From positions 6,386,001 through 6,450,000 of the forward strand of contig NC_092679.1 in NCBI RefSeq assembly GCF_964355755.1: a stretch of DNA of 64,000 nucleotides. Reading direction: 5' to 3'. Source of the DNA: Antedon mediterranea. Lineage: Eukaryota; Echinodermata; Crinoidea; Comatulida; Antedonidae. The position numbers and the translations under genes were made by a program. Below the pieces are notes generated by a model. That model was not told the DNA's origin. It saw only the letters and a program-made list of their open reading frames with translations, and did no database searches. Shown here piece after piece: positions 9,301-42,681 of this stretch (within the stretch, counting starts at the first letter, position 1; the number at the start of each line of letters is the position of its first letter).

Positions 9301-12300
9301 AATGAAACATTAATATACTTTTTCATTTTTATCAATAAATAGTTTTCTTATTCATTATAATATAATTTTTCTTCAAATCTAAATGTATTGTCTATGAAAT
9401 AACAGTGTTAATGATGAAAATACAGTGACATTCAACCTCTATTAAACGGACATATTTAGAACGTAACAAAGTGATCCCTAAATAGTGGTGACCCCTGTTA
9501 AAAGGTTGGCAGTAGTGTGAATATATAATATATTACCTCGTTCGTTTCATGTTCTCAAAATAGCCATTCAGGGTATGATCAAATGGAACACTTTTCTGTG
9601 AAACAAACAAAGAACAAAATATATTTTAAAACTACGGCCAACCCCGGTTCTGCTATGGTTACAAAATTGGAAGTAAAAATTTAAATCTTAAAGGAAAGGT
9701 TAAACAATATTTTTATTATAACTTGGTGATTATTTTAAAGACAATACATTTCTAAACCATGTATGTTCTATTTTAAATAATATAATATAACATTATGATA
9801 TTTCATAAACTTAATAACCAGATGATTTGTTTAGATGTGGATGAGTGTGAGGACATAGACGTTTGCCAGTTTGGTACCTGTGTCAATGCTCCCGGTACCT
9901 TCTGGTGTGAGTGCGAACCCCCTCTACAATTGGATAGTACACAACGACGGTGCATAGGTGAGGTATTGAGTGTGAATATATATTAGAAATCCCTATGAAA
10001 TTTGTGAATTGATTTGAAAGTACAATGCAATGAAAGAAATAATAAAGTAGTATTTTCACCATTTATAATATAACGTTTAGTTTTGAGGTATAAAGACAAA
10101 ATTGACATCTGAATACAGTAATAACATTTTTTAGATTTTCACATTTACAAAAATGTTCATTACAAATTTAAATGGCTTAATTACATTATTTTGATAACAT
10201 AACAATTCTTATCTTGATAATTTATCATATCATTCAAAATTAATTTGTTAACTAATATACTGTATATATTCAGATTGAAATAAATACAGAGTATGAATTC
10301 AAATTCTTCTTACATCAATTTTTTTTATCGAAAATTGCAAGCATTTCATCGAGAATTGCCAGCATTTCGTCAAGAATTGCAATCAATTCATCGAGAATTA
10401 CAAGCATTTCATTGAGAATTGCAAGCATTTCATCGAGAATTGCAAGCAATTCATCGAGAATTGCAATCAATTTATCGAGAATTGCAATTGCATTTCATCA
10501 AGAATTGCAAGCATTTCATCGAGAATTGCACGCATTTCATCGAGAATTGCAAGCATTTCATCGAGAATTGCAATAAATTCATCGAGAATTGCAAGCATTT
10601 CATCAAGAATTGCAAGTATTTCATCAAGAATTGCGAGCATTTCATCAAGAATTGCAATCAATTCATCGAGAATGACAAGCATTTCTTGAGAATTGTAAAC
10701 ATTTCATCGAAAATTACAAACATTTCATAGAGAATTGCAAACATTCTCATACGCATCTGCATGATTATAATCCATTTTTTCTAAATGCTTTTAATTGTTC
10801 TAAATTAAAAACCTGTTCTGTAAATTTGTTATCGTTTATTTAATGCATTACATGTAGTTGGAGATGATGATTCAGGTAAGTGACTATTAAAAATAATTTC
10901 TGAAAACAAAAATTGATTCAAAATATATGAAAATTGGAAATACTGTATATACAAAATAGTATACACATTCATTTTGTTTCGTTTATGTATTCAACCAGCA
11001 AAAATAATATAACGTTAGGAAAAAAGAGAGGATACAAATAACATATAAAAATAGCCTGGCAGGGGTTAAACCATAGAGATTATAATATCTCTATGGTTAA
11101 ACAAAGTACACTCAAATGGGTCAGGTATGTCTACTACCATAGAGATAATATCTCTATGCTACTACTAAAACTGGAAATACTCTATACAAAATAGTATACA
11201 CATTCATTGTGTTTCGTTTATGCATTCAACCAGCAAAAATAATATAACGTTAAGAAAAAAGAAAGGATACAAATAACATATAAAAATAGCCTGGCAGGGG
11301 TTAAACAAAGTACACTCAAATGGGTCAGGTACATCTACTACTAAAACTGGAAATACTCTATACAAAATAGTATACATTCATTGTGTTTCGTTTATGCATT
11401 CAACCAGCAAAAAATAATATAATGTTAAAGATACAAGCAACATATAAAAATATAAAATGCCTGGCAGCCGTTAAGCAAATGGGTCAAGTACGTCTACTAC
11501 TGAACAATGACAATCGTAATTAATTATTGTTAAGAGTCGAGCCTATTTACACAGAACCTTTCTTAAAATAACAACAAATTGAAGGCACATTGTCCCACTG
11601 AATTTTTGTTGAACATTTTTTTGTTGAATATGCCTTTTTAATGTCATAATAGTTATTTACTTCACAAAAATTGGATCAAAAAATAATTATTTACTTCAAA
11701 AAAACTGTAATTTAAAACCAAAAATAGTCCAAATGGCCGGCTGCCAGTCAATGGGTTTTTGATTGCATTTAACTATTTATTTTGTCATTTTATAGGTGAA
11801 AACATGTGTCTTTGTTTTCTACAGTAACATTGATTACAAAATGACCTATCTGAAGTTCTTAAATGTTATTAATCTTCGTGTTTAAGAATACTCTATTTTG
11901 TAACATTTCAGAATTTATCTGGCAGCCAGGTGGTCCCGGTATGAATGGCGCCACCCATGAGGAACGTAGAGCAACCTGTTGGTCTTCCAGCAATTGTAAT
12001 GGTTTACAGGCTTCTTCACAGACCTACACAGAGTGCTGTTGCGGGTCTGGCATCAGTTGGGGTGTCACTTATTGTGATGTTTGCCCGAAAAAAGGTTCAA
12101 GTGAGTGTAAAGTTCAGTGACATTTGGCAAATGTCATCAACTTTAAAACTTCAACTTGCAACAATAAAAATAACATTTTCAGAAACAATTTCACAGCAAA
12201 ATAACTATATACACAAAGCTAGCTCAAGAGCTGTACCTGCATATCACCTATGTTTTGATTTCTTTTTTTCTGTTGAGGGGATAGTTTAATTATTATTCAC

Positions 12301-25789: not shown

Positions 25790-28700
25790 ATGAAACGATA
25801 TTTTGTAGCAGTAATGTGTAGCTTTGTATATATTTGTGATTTGTGTTCAAGAATAAATATTAATATCGCTATTATAGAAATGGTAAACCCGCTGAACTCT
25901 ACACAAGACAATGTAAGTCATTTGTATTATTGTACGTTAACTAGGCTACTTATAATTAATGGAGCAGCTGACCTGAGCAAATTTTGAAAAATACTAATAT
26001 TGTAATAATGTAACAGAGCCTCCACTACTCAGTTCCATACTTGGGGCTCAGATGTAAGACAATTGGGGAAATAGAGCTGTTAAGTCCATGGTAATGGAAC
26101 TTTGTGGAAAATTAAAAAAAACCACAATAATAAAATTCACCAGAACCTTAAATTCACCATGGATAAAAAATAAATCTGCTTGGTTTGATCCTCGGAATTT
26201 GCACTTATACTATTGAAATATGAAACACGTATAAATCTACCACCCACCATGGTTGGAGTGAAGCTAAGACAATTTTAATAATAGAGCTTTCGCACTGCAG
26301 TACTATAGGCTATGGCTTGGTGTGATTGACTGTTTAGACCGATCATTGGATCCTCGTAGGTACAATCATTTTAAGAATTCCACTTTTAAAGACTTTCAGA
26401 GCCGCAAAACCAACTCAAAACGTCAAATATCATTAAAAATCAACGTATACGTAAATGTTTTTGAACATTTATTATCATTTTACAAATAATTTTTAAAATA
26501 ATACTTGTTGCAGGATTTAGCTTTTTTATTATTTATGTTTTAGTTTTTTAGGCTAGTTAGGGACGTAGGGGGACACAACTAATCAAGCTCTTTTGAGTTT
26601 TTATGTGTTTCCTTTTCATCTTTTTTATGTTCTCATATATTGTTGTTGTATATTTTCATGATTGAGGATGAATAAAGAATATTTGAATTTCAATTTCAAT
26701 GTTTTTTCCTCAAAAAAGAATTTGAACAGTTTTTGTATAATTTTTTTGTTTAGTTAAAATAACTATAGTGAGACATTTAATGAATAGGCAAACTGCTTTA
26801 AAATGTGAGATGTTTCGAGAAACTATTCTCATCATCAAAGAACAGAAAACAACGCCTAGAGTACTTATATACCAATAGGACAGGTTGTATGTAAATGAGG
26901 AAATAATTCATTGTTTTTCCAGATACCAAGGTATGATTGGGATAATACAACACAACAGCAGATACTTGGATCATTTTATTACGGCTTTGCATTTAGCGCA
27001 TTAGTGGCAGGTTGGTTGGTCGGTAAAACTGGCGGGAAACCAACAATATTGTTTATTCTTTTCTCGCAAAGCTTACTATCTGTGTTGATTCCTTGGGCTT
27101 CAGGCGTGAGCAGTATATTTGTGATAATCATACGGATTTTACAAGGATTGATTGAGGTTAGTTCTCAATAAAAATCAAAAGGTTAATGTTCATTATATAA
27201 TTAGCATTATCAGGGGCGTTCGCTGGACTATTTTAAGATGGTTGCCCAAAGACGAAAATTTTTTAATGACACCCCTACCTCTCGCACGTAAAATTCATAA
27301 TAAATTGCACCTCTAGTTCGACGGAAATGTCACTCACTCTATAGTGATAACATAAATTCATTTTTATTTATCCACTATAAACTTTACAAAAGTGTTGTTT
27401 AAACCACACTCCAAAACTAGAAAGCCACTCCGAGAGTGCATACCTCCGCCTACTGTAAAATTCTCCTACAGAAGATTTCTCCGGTTAAAAAAATCACATA
27501 AGAGCATGACGAAAGAGTATTTGAGCTTTAAGAAAGAGTATAAAAGCATTATATTTTAAAAGCTGTTATCTGGCGGCCGCCACTTAATTATCTGGCGGCC
27601 GCCACTTAATTATCTGGCGGCCGCCACTTAATAATTAGTACATGTCCCGTCACGTGGCATGTACGTGCATTGGATCAGAGGCGATGTTGCATGCAATAAA
27701 ATATGGAACGCCAGTAATCTCTTCACATGCGGTGACGTCATGCTCTCAAACTATTTCATTATGCTCTTTATATCGCACACCATTATCTTCGAACGTAATC
27801 CGTTCTAACGAATTAGTAATTCGTTTGAACGGATTAATAATCTGTTCAAACGAATTAGTAATCCGTTCAAACGAATTGCAACATATACAACAAGTGCCAT
27901 TTAAAGTATATGTTGTAATTCGTTTAAACGGATTACTAATCCGTTCAAACGAATTACTAATTTGTTTAAACGGATTACTAATTTGTTCAAACAAATTACT
28001 AATTCGTTATAACGGATTACTAATTTGTTTAAACGGATTAATAATTTGTTTAAACGGATTACTAATTTGTTTAAACGGATTACTAATTCGTTCAAACGAA
28101 TTAGTAATCCGTTTAAACAAATTAATAATTTGTTTAAACGGATTATTAATCCGTTCAAACGAATTACTAATTAGTTATAACGGATTACGTTCGAAAAACA
28201 TATACTTAAAATGGCATTAATGGGCTTTCGTACTTTCCTAATGCTCTTATGTGCATAACTAATGCTCTTATACTCTTTCTTAATGCTTTTATACTCTTTC
28301 TTAATGCTCAAATACTCTTTCTCGTCATGCTCTTATGTGACTTTCCATGCTCTTATACTCTTTCGTCATTCTAAATTATGCGACGTATCATGCTCTTATG
28401 AGGTAACTAAAAATGCATCGACACATTCTCGACGCACGTGGCGCACTACTTCAAATGTAAAATAATCGACGGCTGTACAAATAAGTATAGGAAAGTTACA
28501 ATTATCTTAATTATCTGGCGGCCGCCAGATAATTAAGTGGCGGCCGCCAGATAATTAAGTTAACAAGTTAACTTGTGGCCCGAACGGGCTTCCGTACACT
28601 AGTATCTCCATCATCAGTAGGATACTTTGCAATAATAGAACTTGATTATGTTGATGTTCCCTCAATAATTAAATGTGTATCGTTATTCACCAGGGATTGA

Positions 28701-41590: not shown

Positions 41591-42681
41591 GGGTGTCACG
41601 AAACCTAAGACCACAAAAGCTAAGACCCCCTAAGACCTAAGATCACGAAAGCTAAGACCCAAGACCTAAGATTAAAAATATTTATCTTTCGCACCTGCCT
41701 TGTATTTTAACTCCCAACATTTATTCTGAATACCACACCTTAGAATTGGCACTTTCATGAAAAAGAATCACATAAAAAGTAACAAATACATTTTTAAATT
41801 GATGATTTTACAGACGTTTTTCTCGCACACAAAATGACTAGCCTACAGTACAGTAGGCCATAGAGATATTATAGTGAACCTCTATGAGTAGGCCTACCCC
41901 ATGTTCAATGTTTTTGTTTCTATGGAACGTCAAAAGAGCAAAAATTATATAGAGGGCTGAAAACTATGTGGTGTCCATCTACAGTGTGGATGGAACAATG
42001 TAAAATTAAAATTGTAATGATAATAGTATAATCATGAAAGTACGAAGAAATAAATACTGGCAAATAAATTTTAATTTAAAAATCATGATAAGTTTTTTTG
42101 TTTCGTTTTCTTTCTGTTTTTATACTTGTACTATTATTGTTGCTCTTTTGGCGCTCCATAAAAACATTGAGCATGGGGAGCTCGAGGAGTTACATTACAG
42201 TATACAAAGAAACACATCTGTAAAATCATCAATTTAAAAGATTTATTTATTTGTTATTATGTGTTTCTCCTTCTGAAAGTACTTATAAGTCCTAATTTTA
42301 AAGTGTGGTGTTCAGGATAAAGTTAGTCAACAAATTTGGAGTCAAAATACAAGAAAGGCAGGTGCGTAAGAAAAACATCCTCTGAACCAACACAATGGAG
42401 TAAATATATACCAACAAACAACCCGTCAAGTTTGTTTGTTGTAAAGAAAAAATATACATTTACTCAACGGGCGAAAATAATGTTTTGCGGTAGTAGTATT
42501 AAATTATATTTATGGTAATAAATGAAACCTAATGTGTTTAAAATTATGTATGGATAAACAAGTATTGTTTTTAAGCTGTAGTATATCTTAGTATTTGTAA
42601 TCTTAGGTGTTGGGTCTTAGCTTTCGTGATCTTAGGTCTTAGGGGGTCTTAGCTTTCGTGGTCTTAGGTTTCGTGACACCC
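41591..42681. mobile_element. 1.1-kb foldback element with GGGTGTCACG ends
   Basis: About 80 bp at 41591-41672 (GGGTGTCACGAAACCTAAGA...) is complementary to 42600-42681. The arms themselves consist of repeated CTAAGAC and AAGCTAAGACC motifs. A second inverted pair lies inside: 41687-41750 with 42303-42367. The right arm is lengthened by about 230 bp of extra sequence. It is non-coding. Confidence 0.82.
41860..41887. mobile_element. 28-bp palindromic micro-insertion inside the foldback
   Basis: CATAGAG and CTCTATG arms enclose a loop, and GTAGGCC lies on both sides (41853-41859 and 41888-41894). The complement shares TATAATATCTCTATGG with the insertion at 11071-11096, so they are one family. 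Confidence 0.7.

Follow-up and report, generated by a model that had tools for sequence, protein, structure and literature searches.

In the window analysed here, a stretch of 64,000 nucleotides from the crinoid Antedon mediterranea, the first of three tandem intron units (starting near 10948, 11183, and 11357) carries two tiny palindromes, each lying between direct repeats, and the question raised by this locus is what these small inserts are and how they came to be there. At site 1, a palindrome of 24 bp (CATAGAGATTATAATATCTCTATG, positions 11072–11095, no strand assigned) lies between two forward-strand copies of GTTAAAC (11065–11071 and 11096–11102), and at site 2, a palindrome of 21 bp (CATAGAGATAATATCTCTATG, 11138–11158, also with no strand assigned) lies between two forward-strand copies of CTACTAC (11131–11137 and 11159–11165). 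The original prediction had described palindromes of 21 and 26 bp, flanked by TTAAA at the first site and by CTACTAC at the second. Both palindromes and both duplications are present, with the palindrome borders corrected to 24 and 21 bp; the flanks of site 2 stand as described, whereas TTAAA is only the core of the true duplication GTTAAAC at site 1, where the outer C and G are duplication bases and the insert is, therefore, 24 bp long. After this correction, a single rule fits both sites: an insert of the form CATAGAG...CTCTATG and a duplication of exactly 7 bp.

The second unit was confirmed to be empty at both sites, with a single GTTAAAC (11300–11306, forward strand) and a single CTACTAC (11335–11341, forward strand), and the third unit, in which site 1 has changed to GTTAAGC and one CTACTAC is present, lacks the insert at both sites as well. 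The spacing between units 1 and 2 is 235 bp and that between units 2 and 3 is 174 bp, a difference of 61 bp; both unit-1 inserts plus one duplication each amount to 59 bp, which matches the excess of unit 1 over unit 2 within 2 bp. As the inserts are missing from both other units, including the more diverged unit 3, the filled unit 1 is best read as the derived one, and the proposed insertion with target duplication was thus borne out. The reverse course, in which the palindromes are ancestral and were deleted from units 2 and 3, would require the loss of both sites in two units, each loss leaving exactly one duplication copy; no point in its support was found, many other genomic sites bear the same insertion signature, and we regard it as scarcely credible.

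A third site was found in the same window, where a probable excision scar of 28 bp on the forward strand (41859–41886), made of 21 nt of one end (CATAGAGATATTATAGTGAAC) followed by CTCTATG of the other, with the arms assigned by eye, is flanked by AGTAGGC on both sides (41852–41858 and 41887–41893, forward strand). The pattern CATAGAG-N0-20-CTCTATG had three matches in the window and none in any of 100 dinucleotide shuffles. When the window was scanned de novo for inverted arms of 9 bp between exact repeats of 7–8 bp, four hits were obtained, compared with none in each of 10 local shuffles (200-bp, single-base). Two of these hits were the palindromes of sites 1 and 2, and the other two, at 27820 and 28077, were rejected as scars, as both lie within a 21-bp satellite. 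This satellite (27775–28200) is composed of near-palindromic 21-bp units resembling GTTTAAACGGATTACTAATTT, contains large inverted repeats, and mimics duplication-flanked palindromes. A minisatellite with units of about 21 bp (ATTGCAAGCATTTCATCGAGA-like), spotted by eye, occupies positions 10330–10745.

The search of the whole genome with a flank test, which had been suggested as a check, confirmed the signature. With both 9-bp arms required (CATAGAGAT-N0-20-ATCTCTATG), 579 sites were found in 354 Mb, and the control pattern read backwards had none. For a sample on C1, the flanks of 48 of the 50 palindromes listed were analysed (C1:26520192 and C1:27146377 were left out), and the collapse of one array, together with seven of the nine palindromes of the L039 region, left 41 rows with palindromes of 18–36 bp. 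Exact duplications were present in 26 of the 41 (25 of 7 bp and one of 8 bp), a number that rises to 31 with up to one mismatch and to 34 with up to two; of the 15 rows lacking an exact duplication, 10 were off by more than one mismatch. In the controls, an exact match was found in 1 of 1640 off-diagonal (mismatched) flank pairs and in 1 of 492 outward-displaced 7-mers. The target duplication at CATAGAG palindromes is real and general, and both of its copies are kept, as in P-type footprints. The commonest form in the sample was a 36-mer, CATAGAGATATTATAGTGAACTATAATATCTCTATG, with 119 exact copies at many sites of the genome and in both orientations.

Some of these palindromes lie in repeated surroundings. 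At L039:1500–1922 (G000:C1:19904699–19905121) and beyond, a tandem array of the 36-mer was observed with 43-bp spacing (36 bp plus the 7-bp GTCCAGG), one spacer variant (GTTCAGG), and a centre whose orientation switches along the array, which may have arisen either from successive insertions that reused one duplication or from expansion in tandem. A 41-bp form of the scar, varying slightly, was found in L107, L116, L117, L119, and L120 in the middle of a longer inverted repeat (GGGGTCTAAG...CTTAGACCCC), of which there are several copies; other repeats can thus spread scars. In addition, L069, L155, and L156 are copies of one repeat with an identical insertion point, where the scars of L069 (53 bp) and L155 (52 bp) are related and the 50-bp interior of L156 is clearly different from both, pointing to a separate excision or heavy local change.

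We consider it highly probable (about 0.92) that the CATAGAG palindromes are the excision footprints of a DNA transposon of the P superfamily, each of them most likely consisting of one terminal inverted repeat (CATAGAGATATTATAGTGAAC...) present twice, in shortened form and set end to end. Scar 1, compared by eye with the parent repeat, would join 9 and 15 nt of the two terminal repeats, and scar 2 would join 10 and 14 nt with 3 nt in common, giving a product identical to those of L019 and L038 and present in the other orientation in L030. The duplications and the empty neighbours show the first step, in which an element whose terminal inverted repeats start CATAGAGATATTATAGTGAAC inserted and duplicated 7 bp. 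Published work on P biochemistry, together with the scars themselves, leads us to infer that the transposase would then nick one strand at the element border and the other about 22 nt inside, leaving a single-stranded terminal-repeat tail on each flank. These near-identical tails would be trimmed and end-joined, often through 2–4 nt of microhomology and sometimes with filler, to give a palindrome between the two copies of the 7-bp duplication; the junctions are observed, and the pathway is the one that they suggest. Untrimmed tails pairing at ...GTGAAC(T) would yield the common 36-bp product, and trimmed tails would yield the 24- and 21-bp scars of the window.

Such a course has a precedent. 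According to the available sections of PMC7776569, the P transposase makes its cut 17 nt into the terminal repeat, so that 3' tails of 17 nt remain, a long staggered cut that is unusual among characterized cut-and-paste elements. Repair products of the Drosophila P element, in the accessible portion of PMC2895639, are built as duplication, part of a terminal repeat, microhomology or insertion, part of a terminal repeat, and duplication.

The nature of the parent could be stated beforehand, namely that both ends of the unseen element would start with CATAGAGATATTATAGTGAAC, and two elements agreed with this expectation. The first (L143:101–666, the element of L104) is 566 bp long, has the ends CATAGAGATATTATAGTGAA and is flanked by GTTTCAA on both sides; an A in place of the last C at its right end is the sole departure from the predicted ends. 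The second (L145:101–283) is 183 bp long, with the ends CATAGAGATATTATAGTGAACTG and the duplication GTGTTAC on both sides, so that both carry a target duplication within the 7–8 bp of the P superfamily. Few parents were found: no parent was recognised among 20 GTGAAC sites outside the exact 36-mers (L051–L070), and L104, found among the next twenty, was the one element end among 48 such rows. A search with the L104 sequence gave a diverged relative and three further places that begin with the identical 33 bp, among them the scar L112; in L144, a left end was the only end found. That few parents were found against hundreds of scars weighs against the excision reading, and elements with other interiors on contigs outside the listing could have been missed. 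No CATAGAG end was present at the P-transposase loci L001–L010 with up to 4 mismatches in 17, the only similar ends in L071–L077 and L098–L102 were matches with 3 mismatches in 15, taken as chance, and none of the GTGAAC sites listed on C1–C4 was closer than 76 kb to any of 12 P-gene places.

The arms of the scars point to the same parent. The arm CATAGAGATATTATAGTGAAC, with GTGAAC, occurs at 277 sites and the mirror arm CATAGAGATATTATAGTTCAC, with GTTCAC, at 160; outside the 119 exact 36-mers, the numbers are 158 and 41, an excess expected if GTGAAC is present on both parent ends (binomial 2e-17, a value that is too small because copies of repeats were counted as independent). Seven of the 41 mirror-arm sites were read, corresponding to four distinct places, of which L160 is a mutated 36-mer, whereas L161–L163 (as one), L164, and L165/L166 (as one) are not simply so. 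For the GTGAAC arm outside the exact 36-mers, 49 loci gave 48 rows (L053 was left out by the strand rule), several of them copies of one repeat; 28 of the 48 showed an exact 7-bp duplication at most 54 bp from the arm, with scars of 22–61 bp, some including filler, and three (L111, L152, and L159) had neither a recognisable second arm nor a known interior.

Measured against the parent ends, the longest arm was at most 22 nt in all 41 rows of the C1 sample, where the search pattern would permit 29. Junctions were free of filler in 30 of these rows, and filler or mutation was found in the other 11. At 21 of the 30 filler-free junctions, 2–4 nt were common to both arms, compared with 22% expected under random blunt joining (p 2e-8), the null model being every trimming from 9 to 21 nt bluntly joined; with the 36-mers removed, the figure was 12 of 21 (p 5e-4). 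The scars thus showed, as in P-type footprints, junctions with microhomology or filler and interiors made of the two parent ends with bounded length, L112 and the 11 rows with filler or mutation being exceptions to the latter. In L112 (61–108), 33 nt of one arm precede 15 nt of the other; the longer arm exceeds a 22-nt tail and would need partial repair synthesis before joining, a possible step by analogy with the Drosophila P products described in the accessible part of PMC2895639.

When tails were taken as fully kept and paired at their 3' ends, a fit made post hoc with the scars already known, a 22-nt tail gave the 36-mer first (three terminal pairs), followed by a 25-mer and a 27-mer, both of which were observed (L051 and L114). 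The 36-mer is likewise obtained with a 21-nt tail (two pairs), a 23-nt tail yields the 23-mer of L052 and L070, and tails of 17–20 nt do not produce the 36-mer. The scars thus suggest a tail of about 22 nt for the CATAGAG family.

The abundance of the 36-mer could also be explained if it were a palindromic micro-transposon, mobile in trans, with the shorter forms arising by later central deletions, a reading to which its 119 exact copies at many sites in both orientations and the tandem array with 7-bp GTCCAGG spacers, one of them variant, lend some support. Deletions should, however, keep GTGAAC and GTTCAC equally, against the 158 and 41 counted outside the exact 36-mers, and the 53-bp scar of L069 contains two full arms of 21 nt. 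In addition, forms of 18–21 bp with exact duplications are too small for two internally cut ends, elements of 183 and 566 bp share the same ends, and the 36-mer itself is the predicted annealing product of two tails of 21–22 nt. P element transposition reportedly needs internal sequences, so that 18–36 bp would be too short. We therefore hold a mobile 36-mer to be very improbable.

Much of this evidence also counts against the micro-element family first put forward for these palindromes: a single end type is combined with lengths from 18 to more than 50 bp, the arms are retained lopsidedly, the junctions show microhomology or filler, and full-size elements with the same ends exist. Hairpin-driven templated repair, its companion in the original prediction, came nearer in invoking repair, and a hairpin-driven insertion is not needed. 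Miniature inverted-repeat transposable elements (MITEs) are short noncoding elements with terminal inverted repeats, target duplications, and many copies. The 183-bp element of L145 would qualify as one, whereas the palindromes of 18–36 bp differ in that they are not a transposing unit and their length varies by repair. They were rejected as mobile MITE units on account of their variable length, their arm asymmetry, and the different scars found at one locus in a control family. A piggyBac origin was also rejected, as the duplications are 7 bp of varied sequence and not TTAA.

The control families are other P elements of the same genome, in which matches to the P transposase domains PF12017 (13) and PF21787 (35) were found. 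The CAAAGATCTTATA family is complete in L074 (7-bp duplication) and L077 (8-bp duplication), with PF12017 and PF21787 matches inside, and palindromes made of its ends, as the scar model predicts, were found at 25 places (none in the control). Among the 20 of these 25 that were fetched, exact duplications of 7 bp were found in eight and of 8 bp in five, the set including three pairs of copies (L080/L085, L087/L088, and L093/L095). This family, therefore, combines internal transposase domains, duplications of 7–8 bp, and scars, which places it in the P superfamily. Its longest arm was at most 19 nt in all 25 scars and exactly 18 nt in 10. Tails of 13–15 nt also explain some short scars and an 18-nt tail explains four of the 25, so the tail length of about 18 nt rests on the arm limit and not on the fit. 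L093 and L095 represent one locus in two copies, with a shared insertion point and different scars, the exact duplication being lost in L093; the most plausible reading is that excision took place twice, in copies that would once have held the intact element.

The second control family, CTGAGACAAC, comprises elements with the ends CTGAGACAACAATCAAAGAGATTGGAAACGCT, 7-bp duplications, and a 794-aa P transposase that matches the Drosophila P transposase of known structure (6p5a, E 1.5e-14). Its palindromes number 74, with none in the control; exact duplications were found in 13 of the 20 fetched, yet, counted by distinct site, in only 5 of 11, many copies being carried by a single repeat (L125–L130, L134, L135, and L139, 9 of the 20, are copies of one repeat, and L140 and L141 are copies of each other).

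Both control families are tied to the CATAGAG family by analogy alone, and the membership of the latter in the P superfamily, which is likely and not proven, draws on its duplication length, its type of scar, and the coding traces near two of its ends. In the C11 candidate (L147/L148), a THAP exon (L147:8073–8321; PF05485, E 2e-16) and a P RNase H domain (L148, near 4440) follow downstream of a left end, all three on one strand; the RNase H domain lies 14 kb away and contains stop codons, and the 20 kb that were read showed no right end. About 770 bp inside this left end, a decayed 36-mer scar (L147:873–908) has near-matching flanks and a single altered base in each of its halves. L150, which has a CATAGAG end with small changes, contains a coding sequence that resembles (tblastn E ~1e-9) a second gene located close to the P transposase genes of L071, L100, and L101.

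Related second genes of up to about 350 aa were observed at L098:4968–5978 (−), L071:5556–6581 (−), L100:456–1505 (+), and L101:964–1578 (+), with no Pfam match for those of L071, L100, and L101 and no PDB match for that of L100. P-type elements may, as judged from these loci, carry a second gene on the strand opposite the transposase, a gene that in L098 lies within the element borders.

Real scars from a DNA transposon superfamily other than P would be the alternative, and it gains from the fact that no certain autonomous CATAGAG element was found, the C11 candidate being long and interrupted, and a coding CATAGAG copy was not firmly identified. No CATAGAG end was present at the P-transposase loci L001–L010 with up to 4 mismatches in 17, the only similar ends in L071–L077 and L098–L102 were matches with 3 mismatches in 15, taken as chance, and none of the GTGAAC sites listed on C1–C4 was closer than 76 kb to any of 12 P-gene places. 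Against this alternative, which we judge unlikely, two P families of this same genome have duplications of 7–8 bp and the same kind of scar, the coding sequence of L150 relates to the second gene found near P transposase genes, and a long staggered cut distinguishes P among characterized cut-and-paste elements in the available sections of PMC7776569.

Compared with described systems, the probable P excision origin places these scars closest to the end-joining products of Drosophila melanogaster P, which, in the accessible part of PMC2895639, are alike in anatomy, being palindromic and formed by terminal-repeat tails left at the donor site. These Drosophila products are experimental, with 17-nt tails and 8-bp duplications (PMC2895639, same part), whereas the CATAGAG scars number hundreds in an assembly, mostly with 7-bp duplications, and retain arms as long as about 22 nt. 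The zebrafish Pdre2/THAP9 elements are also of P type, with a terminal repeat starting CATA (CATACCTGTCAAC), and differ in their 8-bp duplications and 13-bp terminal repeats, the portion available of PMC10983969 describing no scar population. In a limited search of open papers, titles and the beginnings of abstracts described no genome-wide population of P scars.

The kind of scar and its mechanism are already known, and the case is ordinary in mechanism and unusual in scale; as far as limited searches reach, the new points are the family itself, how many scars there are, how few parents were found, and the inferred tail length. On balance, we lean towards a P family dominated by its scars, with several hundred germline scars against a handful of elements, a cut of about 22 nt (about 18 nt in a second P family), a natural record of end joining, and a preference for the GTGAAC-paired 36-bp product.

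Repeat annotation could mistake such palindromes for micro-MITEs, at a size that is immobile, and they are better read as scars. As such, they would provide hundreds of natural repair junctions, all from a single defined type of break, in an animal that lacks genetic tools, and the length of a staggered cut would be estimable from sequence alone, at about 22 nt here and about 18 nt in the second family, beside the 17 nt published for Drosophila P. In conclusion, these scars suggest how a cut-and-paste family may leave abundant traces in a genome while few of its elements survive.
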